Made by a program: the position numbers and the translations under genes. The notes under the pieces were generated by a model. The model worked only from the letters and a program-made list of their open reading frames with translations, did not search any database and was not told the origin of the DNA. From assembly GCF_001458775.1 (NCBI RefSeq), contig NZ_CZPZ01000001.1, forward strand, positions 1 to 64,000: a stretch of DNA of 64,000 nt, in the 5' to 3' direction. Positions 1 to 9,220 of this stretch are shown here, piece by piece. The stretch comes from Candidatus Nitrospira nitrificans. GTDB lineage: Bacteria; Nitrospirota; Nitrospiria; Nitrospirales; Nitrospiraceae. Each line of letters begins with the position of its first letter. Position 1 is the stretch's first letter.

Positions 1-127
1 CGAATACATCGAGGGGTTCTACAATCGGCAGCGTCGGCACTCAACCCTCGGCTATCACTCCCCAGCTGAGTATGAAGCGCGGGCAGCAGTCGCGTAACCA
101 CGTGTCCATGAAATCGAGGGAAGATCA
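1..127 (+). mobile_element. Right end of an IS3-family insertion sequence (truncated by window edge)
   Basis: These 127 bases are identical to positions 44071-44197, the right end of the complete IS3-family element later in the window. Bases 1-97 encode the last residues of the OrfB transposase, ending in TAA at 95-97, and 102-127 is the right terminal inverted repeat. Identity stops exactly at 127, which fixes the element boundary. The left part of this copy lies outside the window. The two copies are in the same orientation. Confidence 0.95.
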
Positions 128-137
128 GAGCTATACT
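108..137 (+). promoter_or_regulatory. Possible hybrid promoter: -35 in the IS end, -10 outside
   Basis: A TATACT hexamer (132-137) ends 7 nt before the ATG of the MarR-type gene. Eighteen bases upstream is ATGAAA (108-113), a weak -35 match lying inside the IS terminal repeat. No Shine-Dalgarno sequence precedes the ATG, so the transcript would be leaderless. The -10 is convincing; the -35 is weak. Confidence 0.4.
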
Positions 138-144
138 TGTCCCT

Positions 145-525
145 ATGAATCCGTTTCAAGGCAACACAAGCAGCCTTTCCACACTAGAAACTCTTCTCCG
201 TCTTCAGGGCTTTTTCCATCACCGATTGCAACCTCTTGGCGTCTCACCTATCCAGGCCAGTATGGTGCTTTATCTTGACCGGCATCCTCAGTGCCAGGTG
301 ATGGAAATCTCTTCGGCGCTCTGCATTCCCAACCTCTCAACGGTCAAAACCGTTCAACTTCTTCAGAGAAATGGATGGATACGCAAACCACAGGTCAATG
401 CGAATAGGAAAATCGTCAAGCTACAGCTCACTGAAAAAGGCACAGCCCTCGCTCAGAGGATCAAAGAGAATATCGAAGTCACTGACAAACTCTTTGCACT
501 GGCCAACAGCCGCAAGGCTGCGTAA
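145..525 (+). CDS. MarR-type winged-helix transcriptional regulator
   Basis: A 126-residue protein with the layout of a small MarR-family repressor: an N-terminal helix, a helix-turn-helix around residues 48-75 (MEISSALCIPNLSTVKTVQLL), and a wing with the typical RKPQVNANRKIVKLQLTEKG pattern at about residues 80-100. MarR proteins bind palindromic operators as dimers and respond to small ligands. At 126 residues it is a little shorter than most (about 140-150), mainly in the dimerisation helices. It lies 17 bp downstream of an IS3-family end and may be expressed from a hybrid promoter there. The copper-type genes downstream are on the same strand but 320 bp away, so a regulatory link is only a guess. 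Confidence 0.75.
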   Translation: MNPFQGNTSSLSTLETLLRLQGFFHHRLQPLGVSPIQASMVLYLDRHPQCQVMEISSALCIPNLSTVKTVQLLQRNGWIRKPQVNANRKIVKLQLTEKGTALAQRIKENIEVTDKLFALANSRKAA

Positions 526-846
526 ACGTTTCTTTATCTGACCATCGGCAAAAACACAGACTCAGTTCGCACCATGGGCATCGAGACGCCAACCCTCGCA
601 TCGCTTCACGGTTCGAATTACTGAGGATCAGAGACAGGGACCCATCCGGCCGCACTTCAGACGGCCGGGCCATAACGCCTCTGTTATCCGGCCATGTGCA
701 ATAGCGCCTACATCAAAAATGATCACCCTTCTGATCCGCGATACCTCTCTCCAATCCAACTGTGCTCATCGTCATCTCGATATCGAAAAAAACCGATCAG
801 AAAACCTGCATTGACAGCACTCCAAACCAGGCGTAGCATCTCAAGA
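526..846. other. Intergenic region with hairpin and promoter
   Basis: No convincing gene. It holds a GC-rich hairpin (arms 646-652 and 662-668, 9-nt loop) without a T tract, and a promoter-like pair at 811-839 described separately. An ORF in the downstream gene's frame opens at 694 but shows no coding character before 847. Confidence 0.5.
811..839 (+). promoter_or_regulatory. Sigma-70-type promoter for a leaderless gene
   Basis: A perfect TTGACA (811-816), a 17-bp spacer and TAGCAT (834-839) end 7 nt before the ATG at 847. Transcription would start at or next to the ATG. No Shine-Dalgarno sequence is present. Confidence 0.6.
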
Positions 847-1179
847 ATGGCGCGGGTTTCTGTCTTTCTGGCAGCTCTGCTCGTCGTTCTCACCTTCAAC
901 GCCTATGCCTGTGTCCTGCCGTTACAGCAATCAACTGGGATGGACTGTTCCTCGGGGACGGAGGCGCCAGTACGCGGAACATGCGACGCGTTTCTCGACA
1001 TAGGCCCGCAATCACAGTTATCATCTCACACCGCCGCCTATACGTCCCATCTAGAATGCGCGTTGCCTGTTCATCTTCTTCCCGATACGTTTGTTCCGCT
1101 TGTTCGAATCACTAATCCACCACGTAGCGCCGATACACCTATCCATCCCTCGATCCACACAACAGTCTTAAGGATTTGA
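847..1179 (+). CDS. Small exported protein of unknown function, next to copper-storage gene
   Basis: The ORF opens at 694, but the ATG at 847 gives a 110-residue protein beginning directly with a signal peptide (MARVSVFLAALLVVLTFNAYA, cleavage near residue 21). This start also sits at the expected distance from a consensus promoter. The mature part holds four cysteines (CVLP, DCSS, TCDA, ECAL) and no domain I recognise. It lies 110 bp upstream of a Csp-type copper-binding protein on the same strand, so a periplasmic metal-related role is possible, but nothing in the sequence proves it. Residues before 847 look non-coding. Confidence 0.6.
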   Translation: MARVSVFLAALLVVLTFNAYACVLPLQQSTGMDCSSGTEAPVRGTCDAFLDIGPQSQLSSHTAAYTSHLECALPVHLLPDTFVPLVRITNPPRSADTPIHPSIHTTVLRI

Positions 1180-1289
1180 TACCTCCTTCCGTCTTGCATT
1201 CGGTTCTAGACTACCAGGCAAGTCTTTACAGTTTCTCTTCTCCAAATCCACGCGATCAACGTGGACCCTAGAGTATGAAAGGGGGACGC

Positions 1290-1832
1290 ATGTCAGATAT
1301 CAGCAGAAGAACATTTGTGACCACTGGTGCGTCGATACTGGCTACAGGTGTGTCGTTGGTGATGTCGCGAGAGGTGGATGCCGCCACACATGATGCGGGC
1401 CATGGTCCGATGCGAGAGCCTCAGGAGCCCCCCGACTCTTCGTTTCGCCACATGTCAGGCGAGGCGACCGTCATGGACGGACATGGCATGAGCGAGGAAA
1501 TGCGACGCTGTCTTCAGCTCTGTCAAGACTGCCATGCGACCTGCATCAAAATGATTGGTCATTGTTTAAAGTTGGGAAGTCGGCATGCGGCTGCTGACTA
1601 TATCCGGGTATTAATGGACTGTGCACAGCTCTGTGCGACGACCGCCGATTATATGGCTCGGGAATCTTTGCTCCACGACCGTATGTGCGGCCTCTGTTCG
1701 GAGATCTGTCGGCTCTGTGCGGAGAGCTGCGAACAGATAGGAGGAGATGATCAGATGGTACGGCAGTGCGCCGAGCTGTGCCGCCGCTGCGCCGGATCTT
1801 GTGAACATATGGCATCGAAAGGGGCAGCCTAG
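1290..1832 (+). CDS. Exported four-helix-bundle copper-storage protein (Csp/DUF326 family)
   Basis: The 180-residue protein starts with a twin-arginine-type signal (SRRTFVTTG, then a hydrophobic stretch ending near residue 32) and a His/Met-rich linker. About residues 70-180 are a Cys-dense helical region with repeated CxxC and CxxxC spacing (CLQLCQDCHATC, CGLCSEICRLCAESC, CAELCRRCAGSC); I count 16 cysteines there. Csp proteins line the core of a four-helix bundle with cysteines that store many Cu(I) ions, and Tat-exported Csp1 is the closest described type. The ATG at 1290 is preferred over 1275 because a GGGGG run precedes it at ribosome-binding distance and the Tat motif then follows directly. 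It probably sequesters copper in the periplasm. Confidence 0.88.
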   Translation: MSDISRRTFVTTGASILATGVSLVMSREVDAATHDAGHGPMREPQEPPDSSFRHMSGEATVMDGHGMSEEMRRCLQLCQDCHATCIKMIGHCLKLGSRHAAADYIRVLMDCAQLCATTADYMARESLLHDRMCGLCSEICRLCAESCEQIGGDDQMVRQCAELCRRCAGSCEHMASKGAA

Positions 1833-1872
1833 CACGTCGAATCACAGATGACTCGATACAGAATGTACACAC

Positions 1873-1896
1873 CCGGCCGCCACTCTTGGCGGCCGG
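1873..1896 (+). terminator. GC-rich hairpin after the copper-storage gene
   Basis: A perfect 10-bp stem (1873-1882 with 1887-1896) closes a CTCT loop 40 bp after the stop codon at 1832. No T tract follows, so it may act as a transcript-end stabiliser rather than a strict intrinsic terminator. Confidence 0.5.
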
Positions 1897-1969
1897 CCCA
1901 TTCAGAGTGGTTCAATTAGATCGTCCAGTCCGGACGTCACAGCACACCTCGTCAAAATCTGCTGTTTTC

Positions 1970-1998
1970 TTGTCATGCCGTACCCCCTCAGTTAGACT
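1970..1998 (+). promoter_or_regulatory. Sigma-70-type promoter before the Pro-rich protein gene
   Basis: TTGTCA (1970-1975), 17-bp spacer and TAGACT (1993-1998) precede the ATG at 2013 by 14 nt. The predicted leader is about 8 nt or less and has no Shine-Dalgarno sequence. Confidence 0.45.
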
Positions 1999-2012
1999 TT
2001 TTTCACACAACC

Positions 2013-3413
2013 ATGGCACGAGCACGCGCGACAGACCATCAGCGCCCTCGATCAAAAACCGCTCTGATCGAAGAGGCCACACTCGGAATCACCAAGCTTC
2101 AGGAGGTGTTGGCGGCGATCAATGACCTCGGTCAAGAAGGGTTTCCCTATCGGGATGCCGCGCAAAGCAAAGCCGAGTTGCAGTTTCGCGAGTGTCTGCG
2201 CCACGCGTTCGGTGAGCGATCTCAGGAGTTTCAAACCTACCGCAACTTCAAACTTCGTACAGCGGACAAGGCCGAGGTAGCCCAGAGCCTAGCTGCCATT
2301 AAAGGCCTCATACACACTCTGGAGGATCGAAAGTTGGAACTTCAAGGGCTCAAGCCACCACCAAAACCAGAATCACCACCCGAAGGAAGCCTCAGTAATA
2401 TAGCTCGCATGGCACTGGTCCCGTCTACACCTCCAGTCATCGTGACAGAACAGATACCCTCGCCGATGACCGGCGCTGTGACCGTGACAACCAATGTGGG
2501 AGCGTCAATGGCTCCACTGCCTCCCGCGGCTCACTCACAACCGCCCATGCCGGAATCTACGATTACTGCGCCTGCAACGACCCTGATTCCAACGCCGACA
2601 CTGACTCCGCCTCCTACGCCGTCGCTGACACCCATGCCTATAGCATCCGAGTTACCGCCTCAATCCATCGCCAGCCCCATCCCTTCCCCTCCTCCCGTAC
2701 CCGCAGCTCAACCCATGCCATCAGCGATTGATAGGCGGATAGAAGCCGCGCAAGCGCCTCCATCGCCGATGGCAGCTCCGCTCGTTTCCGCAATACCGAC
2801 GCAACCGCAGATCCCTCCCCCACCCTCTGCGTCGAATTACCCGTCGATGCCGCCAGAGATGTCTCCGAGTCTGGTCCAAGGTCCGCAAGATTTCCCAATA
2901 GGCAAACAGGCAATCGGCTTGAGTATCGCTCGCGTGATTGAGTCCACACTTGACCAAGACCCACTCAATCTCATCAGAAAAGTCTGCCTGCGCTTCCACT
3001 CCGTAGCCCGCCAGCTCCGACTTCGGAGGGACTATCGTCCGACCCTGGAGGTCGACGACGATTACGACCTCCAGGACCTCTTGTGCGCGTTGCTGAAGGT
3101 AGAGTTCGACGAAGTTGCAACTGATGAGTGGACGCCCCCCTATACAGGTGGCGCAGCCAGAACAACGCTTCTGGTGAATCGAGATCAAATTGCGATCGTG
3201 GCAAAGAAGACCGGACCAGGCGTAACCACGAAAGAACTCGCTGATCAGGTGGCGGCCGACTCCGCCTATTATCGAACGCAAGGGCGATGCACCACGATAT
3301 TTTGCTTTATGTACGATCCGGAAGGCCGCATCGGAAGCCCGAGGCGGCTGGAAACCACCCTAACAAGCGTCAGCGAGCACTGCCGGGTCGAAGTGCTCGT
3401 GGCGCCCAAGTGA
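2013..3413 (+). CDS. Pro-rich two-domain protein with DpnII/MboI-like nuclease fold lacking catalytic acids
   Basis: A 466-residue protein in three parts. Residues 10-115 form a charged helical domain (ITKLQEVLAAINDLGQEGFPYRDA onward). Residues 116-295 are a low-complexity Pro/Ala/Ser/Thr linker. Residues 300-466 resemble the DpnII/MboI-type PD-(D/E)xK domain found in many stand-alone proteins: RPTLEVDDDYDLQDLLCALL, DEWTPPYTGGAARTTLLV, AIVAKKTG and CFMYDPEGRI. In active relatives, from memory, the strand after the Gly-rich turn carries an Asp and the next strand an ExK; here these read RTTLLV and VAK, so both acids appear lost while the Lys remains. It is probably a binding rather than cutting module. 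The gene starts a three-gene run with a RAM-domain protein and a lipoprotein. Its role is unknown. Confidence 0.7.
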   Translation: MARARATDHQRPRSKTALIEEATLGITKLQEVLAAINDLGQEGFPYRDAAQSKAELQFRECLRHAFGERSQEFQTYRNFKLRTADKAEVAQSLAAIKGLIHTLEDRKLELQGLKPPPKPESPPEGSLSNIARMALVPSTPPVIVTEQIPSPMTGAVTVTTNVGASMAPLPPAAHSQPPMPESTITAPATTLIPTPTLTPPPTPSLTPMPIASELPPQSIASPIPSPPPVPAAQPMPSAIDRRIEAAQAPPSPMAAPLVSAIPTQPQIPPPPSASNYPSMPPEMSPSLVQGPQDFPIGKQAIGLSIARVIESTLDQDPLNLIRKVCLRFHSVARQLRLRRDYRPTLEVDDDYDLQDLLCALLKVEFDEVATDEWTPPYTGGAARTTLLVNRDQIAIVAKKTGPGVTTKELADQVAADSAYYRTQGRCTTIFCFMYDPEGRIGSPRRLETTLTSVSEHCRVEVLVAPK

Positions 3414-3579
3414 GGCCATGACAAAATCAAATTTGAAGAGGATCCCTTCTATCCCGTCGTCATCGAAAACCATGAAGGCCAAGCCCGGGTTGACAGGGCA
3501 CAGTGACTTTGCTATAACGCAGCCCACTTCCGGGGCAATTCCGTATACTATTCACGGCCCAGCTCCGGGAGATCAAGAG

Positions 3580-3834
3580 ATGTCTGACCGGGCGTACGTG
3601 CTCATCAATGTTCTCCCTGGGCAGACAGCTGCTGTCGTCAAGGCACTGGGTGACATTCAAGAAATAAAGACGATCGATCCCTGTTGGGGCAAGCCGGATA
3701 TTATCGCGATAGCTGACATAGCAGACCAAGATGCCTTGACCCAACTGGTCTTGAGTCGAATACATCGCATAGAAGGAGTGACGCAGACCGATACTCACCT
3801 CGTGTACCGACTGAAGGAGGCCAGAGCAAAATGA
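3580..3834 (+). CDS. Stand-alone Lrp/AsnC ligand-binding (RAM) domain protein
   Basis: The ORF opens at 3418, five bases after the previous stop, but the recognisable domain starts at 3580 (MSDRAYVLINVLPGQ), giving 84 residues, the usual size of a free RAM domain. The beta-alpha-beta-beta-alpha-beta pattern is clear: AYVLINVLPG, AAVVKALGDIQEIKTIDPCWG, DIIAIADIADQDALTQLVLSRIHRIEGV, THLVYRL. In Lrp/AsnC regulators this domain binds amino acids and drives oligomerisation; here the DNA-binding helix-turn-helix is absent. A GGGAGATC stretch upstream could serve as ribosome-binding site. Its stop overlaps the start of the lipoprotein gene (ATG at 3831), so the two are translationally coupled. The 54 upstream residues could form an extension. 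Confidence 0.75.
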   Translation: MSDRAYVLINVLPGQTAAVVKALGDIQEIKTIDPCWGKPDIIAIADIADQDALTQLVLSRIHRIEGVTQTDTHLVYRLKEARAK

Positions 3835-4316
3835 TTCGAAAGGACTGTCTCGCCATTGTCGCCCTTTCCGTTTTCGCGTTTGGATGTACCGGCGTGCAGT
3901 ACGCCATCCAGCCTGACGTCGTTGACGTCACATTGCCCGCATCGGCAGACCGGGTGAAAGCGGCTGTGACTAAAGTTTTGTCGGATGACAACTACAATGT
4001 GGACTGGAAGGATGGAGCGCAGCTTCAGACAGGCTACAGGGGCGAGCAGCCTAGTATCTGGGATTGGCTGGTGAGGGGACGGCTAGGTGTGGTCAGAAGC
4101 CGTGCCGAAGCCTCCGTGACATCGGAAACCGATCAGAGCTCTCGCCTCCGGTTGCAAGTCTCGTCAGAAGGCAAGCAAACGATGTTTCAAGAATGGGAGC
4201 CCACCGCGCCTCAAGTTCCTCAAAGCGCTGAAAACAAGCTTCGTTTGATCAAGAACGAATTGAAAATCGTGCAGACCACGTATACAACCGAAACCTTTTA
4301 CGGGTCGAAGCCTTAG
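3831..4316 (+). CDS. Putative lipoprotein of unknown function
   Basis: A 161-residue protein with a lipoprotein signal (hydrophobic residues 6-18, lipobox AFGC with Cys at 19). The mature part has an alpha/beta pattern beginning VDVTLPASADRVKAAVTKVLSDDNYNVDWK, a layout seen in small periplasmic lipoproteins such as the BamC-like or DUF-type families; I cannot name the family. The start codon overlaps the stop of the RAM-domain gene by 4 bp, placing it in one operon with the two upstream genes. Its 3' end overlaps by 4 bp the 3' end of the convergent response-regulator gene. Confidence 0.65.
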   Translation: MIRKDCLAIVALSVFAFGCTGVQYAIQPDVVDVTLPASADRVKAAVTKVLSDDNYNVDWKDGAQLQTGYRGEQPSIWDWLVRGRLGVVRSRAEASVTSETDQSSRLRLQVSSEGKQTMFQEWEPTAPQVPQSAENKLRLIKNELKIVQTTYTTETFYGSKP

Positions 4317-5728
4317 ACAGGCTCTTTTTCCGCCCCTTCAGTCTCTTCTCCGAGATCCAAGCCGAAACGCTCTGCCATACGGTAGAGCGTTCGTCTATCG
4401 ATGCCAAGGATTTTTGCAGCCTTCACCTTATTTCCCTTCGTTTCCTTGAGTACTCGAGTCAAATGGCGTTTTTCCACCTCCTCGAGGGTCAGATACACTT
4501 CATCGAGTTGATCGGCTTGCGACAGTCGTGCATCGACCTCAGCCGTAGCAGCCTGACGAATGACCTCAGGTAAATCCTCTGGTGTCAGGAGGGGCCCGTG
4601 GCTTAATGACACGGCACGTTCAATCGCATTTTCAAGTTCCCGAACGTTGCCAGGCCATCGATATTGGGTCAAAAGGGTCATGGTTTCAGGCAGGACACCC
4701 CGTACCGCGTGGTCGGTCCCTGCCGCGCACTTTTGCAAGAAGTGATGCACCAGCATGGGAATGTCTTCCCGCCGCTCGGCCAATGACGGCAATGTAATCG
4801 GAACGACTTTCAGCCGGTAGAAAAGGTCGTCTCGAAATTTTCCATCCTTCACCAACTGCTCAAGATCTCGATTCGTGGCAGCGATGATCCGAACATCGAC
4901 TTTGGTGGAAGTGGTGCTTCCGACCCGTCGGACCTCCTGATCCTGCATGACCCGCAACAACTTCACTTGCAATGCCTGTCCAAGCTCGCCGATCTCATCG
5001 AGAAACAACGTGCCGCCATTGGCCGATTCAAAGAGTCCGACCTTGGTCCCGACGGCCCCCGTGAAGGCCCCTTTTTCATAGCCGAACATTTCCGATTCCA
5101 GCAAGGTATCGGGCAACGCGCCGCAATTGACGGGGATGAACGGATTGCCCCGGCGGGGGCCATTCGCATGAATCGCACGCGCAATGAGCTCTTTGCCGGT
5201 TCCACTTTCCCCCTGGAGCAGGACCGTGCTTTTGCTTTCCGCCACGCGCGCGACTAACTTGTACACCTCCAACATCGCCGTGCTGCTTCCGACCAACGGA
5301 GACCAGTCGTCCTTACTCCTCAACTCTTCACGGAACCGCGCATTTTCTTGAAGCAATCGGCAGTGATCCAGGGCCCGCTTGACCACCAGCTTGATGTCCT
5401 CCTTCTTGAACGGCTTCGCCAGATAATCGTAGGCACCCTGCTTAATCGCTTCGATCGCGCCTTCCAGCGAGCCGAACGCGGTGAGCACCACCACGGCGGT
5501 ATTGGGACTCACTCGTTTGAACTCCCGCAAAACCGTCAGTCCATCCACCGCACCCATGCGGATGTCCGTCAGCACCAAATCAACCCGTCCCTGGCGTCCA
5601 CGCGCGATCACTTCTGCTCCGCCTGCAAACGCCTCGACGTGATACCCTTCTTTCCTGAGGGCCTCCGCCAACAGCTCACGTGCAACCACATCGTCGTCAG
5701 CCACCAGAATCGTTGCCGGCCGCATCAC
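4313..5728 (-). CDS. NtrC-family sigma-54-dependent response regulator
   Basis: A 471-residue protein with the full three-domain layout. A receiver domain at 1-120 has the acidic pocket DDD, phospho-acceptor D in VLTDIRMG (about residue 55) and Lys in [10 protein letters not shown]. An AAA+ domain at 145-380 has Walker A GESGTGKE, the sigma-54 contact loop GAFTGA, Walker [13 protein letters not shown], and an arginine-finger region. A Fis-type helix-turn-helix sits at about 420-460 ([22 protein letters not shown]). It activates RNA polymerase-sigma-54 promoters when phosphorylated. Its start overlaps the stop of the histidine kinase gene by 4 bp, so the kinase at 5725-6897 is its partner. All key residues are present. 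Confidence 0.95.
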
Positions 5729-6897
5729 ACCTCCTCGCTCGCATGAATGGGTTTGCTTTGCATCGCCGGCAACGTCATCGTCACGGTCGTGCCACGCTCG
5801 ATCTCACTCGTCAACACCAGGCTCCCGCCATGAGCCACCACTGATTCGTGGCTCAAGAATAGTCCCAATCCGGTCCCCTTGCCAACGGCCTTCGTCGTGA
5901 AAAACGGTTGAAAGGCCTTCTGGAGATCCTCCTCCGGCATCCCACATCCTGTGTCTTGCACCGCGATCGTAATCACCAACGGCGACATGCCGTCTGCGAC
6001 CAGCCGACCCCGTTCCAGTTCAGCGGGCGACGCCTCGCGACTTCCTGCCATGATGGTGACGTTGCCGTGTGAGGGAGTTGCGGCGAGTGCATTCGTCAAG
6101 ATATTCACCAATACTTGATGGATTTTCTCCTTATCCGCCCACACCTGCGGAAGATCCTTTGGAATGTCGACCGTCAGCGCGATTCCTTTCTCATGAAAAG
6201 CCGGTTCCATCAAGACCGCCGAGGGACCGACCACATCCTCCACCGGAAGCCATCGCGGCTCAGGCTGGCGCGGACGAGTCGAAGACAGTAAATCCTGAAT
6301 GATGCGAACGACTCGTGTGAGCTGATCATCGATGATGGCCACCCGTCTCCTCATCTCGGGCGTCGCACCGGGCTCCTCGGCCAACGCCTGCACGTGCCAC
6401 GCGATTGAATGAAGCGGCGTGCCCACCTCATGCGCCACGGATGCCACGAGCTGTCCCACCGCAGCCAACCGTTCCGATCGGTTCAGCTGATCTTTGGCCT
6501 GCACCAACTGTGTGTTGGCTTTGAGCAGATTCTCGGTTTCTCGGGCCAGTGCCGCCCGGGCCGCCTCCTCTCGCGCCTTCCGCTCTTCCCAGCTCACCCC
6601 AAGGTACGCCACCGACAGTAAAACACCGACGACGACGCTCCGATTGATGATCGCGGCTTGAAATCGGCCCGGCTTCGTCGGTTGGAGTAAACCTGAATAG
6701 GTCCCCATGACACAGGCCAGCACCGTCACCAACATAATGGTTCGATTCCGAAGAGTCGTCACCAACAAGATCGGCAACACATACCCATACGCGCCGACGA
6801 CGTTAGCCGGGGCAAACTCTTCAATGACCAAAATGATGAGAAAGCACGCCGCCGCGATGGCCAACACAAGGCGGTCACGATGCGTCATGGGGATCAT
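5725..6897 (-). CDS. Membrane sensor histidine kinase (NtrB/HydH-like)
   Basis: A 390-residue protein with about four hydrophobic segments in residues 8-100, a short coiled-coil linker (EERKAREEAARAALARE) and a cytoplasmic kinase core. The H-box is LVASVAHEVGTPLHSI (about 155), the N-box HQVLVNILTNAL (about 260), then the G1 box DTGCGMPEED and G2 box GKGTGLGLFLSHE. HEVGTP replaces the commoner HEIRNP. There is no periplasmic or PAS sensory domain, so the signal is likely sensed within or near the membrane. It is cotranscribed with the sigma-54 regulator downstream (4-bp overlap) and lies 70 bp after malQ on the same strand, which may be the head of the operon. Confidence 0.93.
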   Translation of the reverse strand: MIPMTHRDRLVLAIAAACFLIILVIEEFAPANVVGAYGYVLPILLVTTLRNRTIMLVTVLACVMGTYSGLLQPTKPGRFQAAIINRSVVVGVLLSVAYLGVSWEERKAREEAARAALARETENLLKANTQLVQAKDQLNRSERLAAVGQLVASVAHEVGTPLHSIAWHVQALAEEPGATPEMRRRVAIIDDQLTRVVRIIQDLLSSTRPRQPEPRWLPVEDVVGPSAVLMEPAFHEKGIALTVDIPKDLPQVWADKEKIHQVLVNILTNALAATPSHGNVTIMAGSREASPAELERGRLVADGMSPLVITIAVQDTGCGMPEEDLQKAFQPFFTTKAVGKGTGLGLFLSHESVVAHGGSLVLTSEIERGTTVTMTLPAMQSKPIHASEEV

Positions 6898-6967
6898 CGA
6901 TTGGCTCCGTCCGGCCGATGATCACAGCCTCTGAATCGAGAACGTAAGGATTCCTTCACGAAAGTAC

Positions 6968-9220
6968 TTACACAAGAGGGCGGGTCAAACGCAACAGAGC
7001 CGCGAGTCGTTCGAATCGGAAATCTTGGGCCAACTCCTCCACCGGCACGCTCAACTTCCGACACCAATTCGGGTGCTGGTCGACTGTCCCCGGTAGATTG
7101 GTCTGGACACGGGTGCCGATGACATCGTCAAGATTGGCCAAGACAATCCACGCAGGGGTGCGGGCCAGATACTGATGAATACTTTCCATCAGCTCAGTCG
7201 TCATGATCGGCACCTGGGCAGGATCTTCCGATACACCAGCCGGTAGGAGGCCTTGAGACTTCAAAGCCGTGAGAATCCCCGCCTTTTCTCGATGCCGCTC
7301 CGCCCACATCGCATGTCGAGCGTCCTCCGAAGGGAAGAGACCCAGTGCGGATCGCGTGTCGATATCCACGCCTTCCCAATACCCCACCAAGGTTGGAAGA
7401 TCGTGAGTGGTGGCGACGGCGAGCGCTTGAGCGGGATAATGGGCCGGGGGCTTCCACCCGCCCCAGGGCTCTCGCTCAAAATAGAACACTCGATACGACA
7501 ACACACCGGCTGGTCCAAGTCGGTCACGCACCCAATCGGGAACGGTGCCCAGATCTTCGCCGATCACCATGGCCTTGGCCCGCACGCTCTCCAACGCCAG
7601 AATCGCCAGCAGCTCATCGTCCCGGTAATGCACGTAGGTCCCCATCGCGGGCGGAAGACCGCGGGGAATCCAAAACAACCGAAAGAGCGCCATGACATGG
7701 TCGATCCGTATCGCCCCTCCATAGCGGAGATTATTGCGGAGTAATTGGATAAAGTACCGATAGCCGTTCGCGCGCAGACGCAAGGGATCGAGCGGAGAAA
7801 ATCCCCAATTCTGTCCCTCGGGGGCGAACGCATCGGGAGGCGCGCCGCAGTCGGCCTTGAACGCCAAGACCTCCTGATTCAGCCATCCATCGGCGCCATA
7901 GCGATCGCTTCCCAGCGCAAAATCATGGTACAAGCCGATCGGCATGCCGGCTTCGTGCGTTTTCCGCACCACCGCAAGCAGTTGTTCCGCAGCCAGCCAT
8001 TGCAGATACTGAAAGAACCGTACCCGCGACATCCGCCGACGCCGAAATTCCTCCACAGCCTCCGATCTCGGAGTGCGATAGGATTCCGGCCAGTCCTCCC
8101 AGATTGCTGCGGTCGAGCATGCAGACTGCCGTTCTTCCTCCAGGGCTTGAAACACTGCATAGTGCGCCAAAGATTCCCCTTCCCGCTCCGTGAAGTGCTG
8201 GAAGTGTCTCCCCCGGACGGTCATCGGCTTCAACTCCGGTTCGACGCCTTCGAAGTTGTCCCGCAGAAACACGTGATAGCACAGTTCGAGCACCTCGCGT
8301 TTCACCGACCTCACCGCGTTGTAATCCACGAGCTCGCATCGCCGAGCTGCTTCGATCCTCGAACGGACTGAGGGATCGGCAAGCCGGCGCTGCACCTCTG
8401 GACCCGTCCAGCACTCTGAAACCTGAGTCACGTCGATGTATAAGTCGTTTAAGAAAAGGCGACTCGTGGGTGAATAGGGACTCATATGATAGGGAATGGT
8501 ATTCTTGAGCGCGTGAAGCGGATTCAGTCCGACCACCGCAGCGCCCAGGCGCTTTCCGGCCCATTCAATGACGGCACCCAGATCTCGAAAATCACCGACC
8601 CCCCAATTGTGGTGACTCCGCAAGGAATAGAGCTGCAAAGCCACGCCCCACCACCGAATACCCTGTTGAAGTTCATCCGGAATGTAACAGCGCTCCGGCG
8701 CGACGATGAGGCGAAACGTGGCCTCCGTATTCGTGCCGCCTCCCTGCGCGTGGGCTGTGACGGTGTAGTAGCCAAGCGGCAGGTCTTGTGGAAATCCCAC
8801 CGCAGCTCGCACAAACCGGCGCCCCTGAATCGTCCGAGTTTCTTGGACTTTGAGAGCGGGCCCTTCGGCGCACCGATAGTGCGTGTCCCCGTTCTCCGCG
8901 TAGACTGACCAGTTGATGGACAGAAGGGAATCGTTCGAACTCTCGCATGGCACATACAGCGACCAGGCCCCTGCCTCTCGTCCCAACCGCAGCACATACA
9001 CAGGTTCGCAGCCCCTGAGCCACCACCGATTATCCCATGTCTCCAGCTCCGCAATAAGTTCCTCGCGATTCGCCACCCGGAGATTCATGGCAGCCAGAAT
9101 GGCCCGTCGCGTTTCATCCGTCGTCACATGGTGCGTTCCAGCGATGTCGTAGTAGTCGGCAGCAATCCCCGCGCGATCGGCCAACAGACGCAACAGATCA
9201 CTTTCAGATTGATCAAACAT
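6968..9220 (-). CDS. malQ: 4-alpha-glucanotransferase (amylomaltase), GH77
   Basis: A 750-residue enzyme that transfers alpha-1,4-glucan segments between maltodextrins, part of cytoplasmic glycogen and maltose metabolism. An extended N-terminal beta-rich region (about 1-170), as in MalQ of Escherichia coli, precedes the barrel: IRWWGVALQLYSLRSHHNWGVGDF, the nucleophile Asp in IRIDHVMALFRLFWIPRG, the acid/base Glu in MVIGEDLGTVPDWV, and the stabilising Asp in ATTHDLPTLVGYW. All three catalytic acids are present. The chosen ATG begins MFDQSESDLLRLLADRAG. A glycogen-store role is likely, but no glgA, glgB or glgP neighbour is in the window. Confidence 0.93.
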   Translation of the reverse strand: MFDQSESDLLRLLADRAGIAADYYDIAGTHHVTTDETRRAILAAMNLRVANREELIAELETWDNRWWLRGCEPVYVLRLGREAGAWSLYVPCESSNDSLLSINWSVYAENGDTHYRCAEGPALKVQETRTIQGRRFVRAAVGFPQDLPLGYYTVTAHAQGGGTNTEATFRLIVAPERCYIPDELQQGIRWWGVALQLYSLRSHHNWGVGDFRDLGAVIEWAGKRLGAAVVGLNPLHALKNTIPYHMSPYSPTSRLFLNDLYIDVTQVSECWTGPEVQRRLADPSVRSRIEAARRCELVDYNAVRSVKREVLELCYHVFLRDNFEGVEPELKPMTVRGRHFQHFTEREGESLAHYAVFQALEEERQSACSTAAIWEDWPESYRTPRSEAVEEFRRRRMSRVRFFQYLQWLAAEQLLAVVRKTHEAGMPIGLYHDFALGSDRYGADGWLNQEVLAFKADCGAPPDAFAPEGQNWGFSPLDPLRLRANGYRYFIQLLRNNLRYGGAIRIDHVMALFRLFWIPRGLPPAMGTYVHYRDDELLAILALESVRAKAMVIGEDLGTVPDWVRDRLGPAGVLSYRVFYFEREPWGGWKPPAHYPAQALAVATTHDLPTLVGYWEGVDIDTRSALGLFPSEDARHAMWAERHREKAGILTALKSQGLLPAGVSEDPAQVPIMTTELMESIHQYLARTPAWIVLANLDDVIGTRVQTNLPGTVDQHPNWCRKLSVPVEELAQDFRFERLAALLRLTRPLV

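Follow-up and report, generated by a model that had tools for sequence, protein, structure and literature searches.

The window, by which we mean the whole stretch of 64,000 nucleotides of Candidatus Nitrospira nitrificans DNA that was analyzed, carries on its forward strand (2013 to 3413) a coding sequence for a protein of 466 amino acids, in which a helical N-terminal domain is joined by a Pro-rich stalk to a PF18742 nuclease domain that appears to be dead. The gene, referred to here as the pseudo-nuclease gene, is present in a single copy in the genome (4.12 Mb, 99.8% complete). According to median omega values (Nei-Gojobori, 282 genus pairs), the four-helix N-terminal domain (residues 1 to 112; 2013 to 2348) is the most constrained part of the protein (0.09), the low-complexity stalk (residues 113 to 315; 2349 to 2957) evolves fast (0.47), and the C-terminal PD-(D/E)XK fold domain (residues 316 to 466; 2958 to 3410) is again slow (0.12). 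Pfam recognizes a single domain, PF18742 (DpnII-MboI), at residues 320 to 466 (165.9 bits with a cutoff of 27; E = 6e-49), and the match covers profile positions 2 to 150 of 150.

The protein was modeled with AlphaFold2 from a 30-row alignment, and the helical N-terminal domain and the low-complexity linker of about 180 residues that the original prediction had described were both seen in the model. Helices were placed at residues 15 to 39, 47 to 66, 71 to 76, and 86 to 110 of the N-terminal domain (residues 15 to 110); the Pro-rich stretch of ~180 to 200 residues was of low confidence and looked disordered; and the C-terminal domain was alpha/beta (pLDDT, ~88), with the motif positions on strands 383 to 388 and 393 to 399. 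In the PD-(D/E)XK fold, the motif positions likewise lie on neighboring strands of an alpha-beta core. In VIA-align searches the C-terminal domain was best matched by BstYI (Z, 7.7; 129 residues; 4.5 Å), and the other matches, EcoT38I, BglII, OkrAI, McrC, Can2, and Card1, were mostly PD-(D/E)XK proteins as well. These Z values are middling, yet they agree with the profile match to EcbAgaN described below. VIA-align returned generic helical bundles only (an allergen, a histidine-kinase sensor, and HPt) for the N-terminal domain, and Foldseek gave no match below an E value of 0.001 for either model.

Upstream of the gene, the promoter scan matched a single weak box, no better than chance. Synteny, present downstream of the gene, is lacking here. 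Window positions 1275 to 1832 encode a Cys-rich protein in which a twin-arginine-like signal and several repeats of a Cys motif are seen; it scores under the Pfam cutoff for DUF326, and we take it to be possibly a copper-storage-type four-helix protein. At the very start of the window (1 to 100), the translated sequence (FYNRQRRHSTLGYHSPAEYE) resembles the C terminus of an IS3-type transposase.

The RAM and lipoprotein genes downstream

Downstream on the same strand lie a stand-alone RAM (Lrp/AsnC ligand-binding) gene (3580 to 3834) and a small lipoprotein gene (3831 to 4316) that overlaps the RAM stop codon. A near-consensus sigma-70-like promoter, TTGACA-N17-TATAAC, is found on the forward strand at 3490 to 3518. 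Much of the genus shares it: over ~40 Nitrospira loci, its hexamers are almost invariant and its spacer is variable. The promoter scan, which demands T as the last −10 position, had missed it. Since this conserved box sits within the listed 5' extension of the RAM open reading frame, the RAM protein is probably 84 amino acids long and starts at 3580. The promoter probably drives the RAM and lipoprotein genes and not the pseudo-nuclease gene, so that what had been described as a three-gene run probably consists of two transcription units.

The order of pseudo-nuclease, RAM, and lipoprotein genes, followed by convergent ntrC, hisK, and malQ, is conserved through most of the Nitrospiraceae, which indicates that the pseudo-nuclease gene has mostly been inherited vertically. 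Conserved adjacency could also mean that the protein is one arm of a functional operon with RAM and the lipoprotein in envelope signal sensing. We regard this as very unlikely: the whole downstream block is syntenic, so the adjacency is not specific; in the genus of the window, a conserved promoter of its own precedes the RAM gene; and the RAM and lipoprotein genes stay paired, adjoining ntrC, where the pseudo-nuclease gene is absent (genus g3 and reduced g4 genomes). The functional link to these two genes that had been proposed thus loses its footing, and they are probably neighbors, not obligate partners.

Catalytic residues of the PF18742 domain

The solved DNase EcbAgaN, the DNase effector of a long-B prokaryotic Argonaute system (PDB 23wq; PMC10620215), was reached from the family by profile only (E = 2.9e-6), and a PDB sequence search with the window domain alone gave no match. 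When this profile alignment was read together with the family alignment, EcbAgaN residues D298, E309, and K311 shared columns with T385 (codon, 3165 to 3167), V396 (3198 to 3200), and K398 (3204 to 3206) of the window protein, respectively. The metal-binding Asp is thus replaced by Thr and the Glu of ExK by Val, as had been predicted, and the Lys of ExK is retained; the 13 intact relatives, which come from plasmids, viral contigs, and a single Nitrospiraceae genome, all have D, E, and K. Lacking D...ExK, the protein is by its motif a homologue of the fold family and not an active enzyme. In EcbAgaN, D298A alone abolishes cleavage, and E309A-K311A is also dead (PMC10620215). The original prediction of a DpnII/MboI-type fold without its catalytic acids is borne out by the profile match, the alignment, the structure model, and the mutated solved relative, which agree. 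Catalytic death, as judged from these relatives, is therefore the expected and well-supported reading, and site-specific DNA cleavage by the window protein is predicted to be absent, given the missing acids.

Cleavage might instead be retained through displaced acidic residues, for which D349, D352, D355, and D391 are candidates because they persist. No acid was gained in compensation, since in the family alignment acids are equally present at these positions in intact relatives. The same applies to the strongly conserved acids D349, D352, D355, D416, and D435 of the orthologues, none of which looks like a replacement acid. As the Asp position moreover varies freely in orthologues (T, S, A, M, R, G, or V) and its mutation suffices to inactivate EcbAgaN, we consider residual cleavage highly improbable, although the helix acids D349, D352, and D355 may still permit some metal binding.

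EcbAgaN resembles the window protein in having a C-terminal PD-(D/E)XK domain, two domains, and an unstructured link, and it forms a dimer of such chains (PMC10620215); unlike the window protein, it retains D298, E309, and K311, is able to cut DNA, and acts together with an Argonaute. An Argonaute-associated nuclease (bAgaN/Aga_Helical-REase) would have an Argonaute gene alongside; there was none among the identified neighbors of the pseudo-nuclease gene, and the PADLOC model Aga_Helical-REase matches the nuclease domain only. The locus also lacks the adjacent methyltransferase of a type II restriction-modification system, none being found among the open reading frames identified in window positions 1 to 9220 (MarR-like, Cys-rich, RAM, lipoprotein, NtrC, histidine kinase, and MalQ-like).

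Conservation of the gene and loss of the acids in the Nitrospiraceae

Orthologues with open frames were found in 70/79 genomes of the genus and in 47/49 of the good ones. Across the Nitrospiraceae, PF18742 is present in 101/114 good genomes and 18/22 genera, mostly at one syntenic locus; elsewhere in the phylum it occurs in few genomes, and the named relatives retrieved were nearly all Nitrospira. Several of the good genomes without the gene are small (1.7 to 2.6 Mb; G029, G146, G223, G227, G363, and G383), and genus g3 (3.2 to 3.4 Mb) lacks it likewise. One member of the genus (L031, genome G021; 61% identical overall) has its stalk region interrupted by three in-frame TGA codons and is a broken or mis-assembled copy.

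Loss of catalysis and absence from several of the smallest Nitrospiraceae genomes are what a decaying relic of a selfish or defense gene would display. The gene is, on the other hand, near-universal at one locus, with frames open almost everywhere and an omega of ~0.1 in both domains, and such strong selection on a dead domain (~0.12) argues that it is not a relic, a reading that we find scarcely conceivable. With its catalytic residues gone and its domain still under purifying selection, the protein qualifies as a pseudoenzyme. Of the 93 domains that have lost both acids, 91 still have K398, and R338, R342, and T400 are invariant; the column once occupied by the Asp is the 126th most conserved of 160, and V, I, L, or A stands in that of the Glu. 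Constraint acts on the fold and on part of the former surface but not on the metal site; the retained Lys and Arg may be structural.

Of the 105 distinct orthologous domains compared, 93 lack both acids, 10 have the Asp only (genera g6, g12, g136, g138, g141, g142 [second copy], and g143), 2 have the Glu only (genera g10 and g140), and none has both; the Lys of ExK is retained in 97. Genus g142 (L174 to L177) carries two dead copies of PF18742: that at the syntenic locus has neither acid, and the other, located elsewhere, is Asp-only. The pair reflects either an early duplication or a transfer between members of the Nitrospiraceae. In a tree built without the three catalytic-site columns, the orthologues formed a single clade (support, 100/98), which backs the earlier claim of derivation from a nuclease. 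Eleven of the 12 one-acid sequences fell into one group (94/84), with the twelfth, L100, branching first; double losers made up a 40-row group (90/93), and the deep forks were without firm support. Parsimony requires at least 3 changes at each acid site. At the Glu site, the residue may have been lost several times independently, or lost once and regained twice; independent losses are favored, short of proof, because the only members of the one-acid group to have lost the Asp are the two that keep the Glu. Different substitutions inactivated the basal genera, suggesting that a single capture was followed by repeated inactivation.

A stalk of 50 to 310 residues is found across the orthologues and is absent in intact relatives. 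It measured 50 to 121 residues in the first three one-acid orthologues (L103, L100, and L104) and 113 to 310 residues in double losers; other one-acid orthologues (L173 and L178) are also long-stalked, and stalk length therefore does not strictly track acid loss.

Origin and proposed role

Intact relatives are two-domain proteins of ~245 to 300 amino acids on plasmids and in viral contigs, where ten loci were found in a second, alignment-based scan after a first scan had found none; no intact relative was found in phage GenBank records. The plasmid and viral proteins (L136 to L140 and L142 to L150) share with the window protein a helical N-terminal domain followed by PF18742 and are about half identical to it in the nuclease domain; unlike it, they have no stalk, keep an intact D..ExK, and are mobile and patchy. 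Two Nitrospiraceae genomes carry intact copies at other loci (L066 and L180), that of L066 near a phage integrase. The N-terminal domains of the intact relatives match the PADLOC defense candidate PDC-S35; PDC-S35/Hypoth_Ymh proteins (Pfam PF09509) have the same type of helical N-terminal domain as the window protein but end in a Ymh domain and have no nuclease-fold domain. When the N-terminal domains of the orthologues were compared directly by profile with those of the intact relatives, the result was suggestive only (E = 0.0012; probability, 19%), and the order of the four helices was the same in the models of the window protein and of an intact relative. In one genome of genus g3 (G129), which has no PF18742 gene, the same N-terminal domain is fused to Hypoth_Ymh with an RNPRAH motif (L215, 3077 to 3895, reverse strand); the domain thus appears portable between effector types. 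Together, the mobile intact relatives, the integrase neighbor, and the links of the N-terminal domain to Hypoth_Ymh and PDC-S35 point to a captured defense effector as the ancestor. That a mobile DNase of phage or plasmid defense was domesticated once in the Nitrospiraceae ancestor, lost cleavage several times independently, and is now a near-universal core gene is a scenario to which we give about even odds.

We propose, with a probability of roughly 55%, that the window protein is a domesticated defense protein acting as a non-cutting, probably nucleic-acid-binding, tethered module; that it has some non-cutting cellular job is very probable. The direct basis consists of the fold family, the missing acids, the family-wide conservation, the intermediates, and the purifying selection. 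An intact two-domain nuclease, with a helical sensor-type N-terminal domain and a PF18742 PD-(D/E)XK DNase domain, would have entered the Nitrospiraceae ancestor and become fixed at one chromosomal site. A Pro-rich stalk would have been acquired between the two domains, and cleavage would have been lost, apparently more than once and via different substitutions, the noncatalytic protein being maintained since. The C-terminal domain would still fold and, probably dimeric, could hold on to nucleic acid, its ancestral ligand, without cleaving it; recognition of a partner or signal would fall to the N-terminal domain, and the long flexible stalk might bridge the two.

Of the two roles that the original prediction had offered, that of a nucleic-acid-binding sensor is possible, judging from the retained basic positions and former active-site Lys. 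The near-neutral charge of the C-terminal domain (pI 6.2; net, −1) is atypical for a strong DNA binder and speaks against strong unspecific DNA binding. It would also suit the main rival explanation, which we consider unlikely, namely, that the dead domain has lost nucleic-acid binding too and is purely a protein-protein scaffold or dimerization module. C325, L337, R439, G441, E447, and the C-terminal APK are more fixed in orthologues than in intact relatives, as would fit a new interface, but the active-site Lys and the conserved Arg and Thr positions are still fixed after acid loss, which speaks against a pure scaffold.

The other role, that of an inhibitor, proved the weaker half of the prediction, as the ~100 genomes normally have no intact copy to inhibit. 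A dead subunit might poison dimers of, or compete with, plasmid- or phage-borne intact PF18742 nucleases; these are mobile and do enter the Nitrospiraceae, and EcbAgaN, the tested relative, is a dimer. Such a decoy is nonetheless decidedly unlikely, given that intact copies were seen in just two Nitrospiraceae genomes, that patchy and not near-universal retention would be expected, and that the window domain and the intact Nitrospiraceae copy L066 share only ~44% identity.

Dead PD-(D/E)XK domains are already known. The nuclease-like domain of RecC likewise has the PD-(D/E)XK fold, has lost catalysis, and serves another role, but as part of a RecBCD subunit with a DNA-hoop role (PMC1185551); we draw this parallel with no claim of sequence relation. 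In the literature searched, which covered a minority of the subscription journals, the PF18742/DpnII-MboI family was unnamed, Nitrospira was not combined with an inactive restriction-like fold, nothing relevant appeared on pseudonucleases in defense, and we found no precedent for a family-wide core, defense-derived, dead PD-(D/E)XK protein with half-dead intermediates. If our reading is true, the Nitrospiraceae hold a natural intermediate series (Asp-only, Glu-only, and neither) from an effector to a non-cutting cellular protein, and a core pseudo-nuclease with half-dead intermediates at one syntenic locus would offer a rare view of an immune effector becoming a housekeeping protein. The analysis also flags a strongly conserved, uncharacterized gene in environmentally important, nitrite-oxidizing nitrifiers. 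Labeling PF18742 matches as restriction enzymes is misleading across the whole Nitrospiraceae. On enterobacterial plasmids, intact PF18742 nucleases (H3 to H15, e.g., L138 and L140) bear the annotation "malate dehydrogenase," an error that has been propagated.
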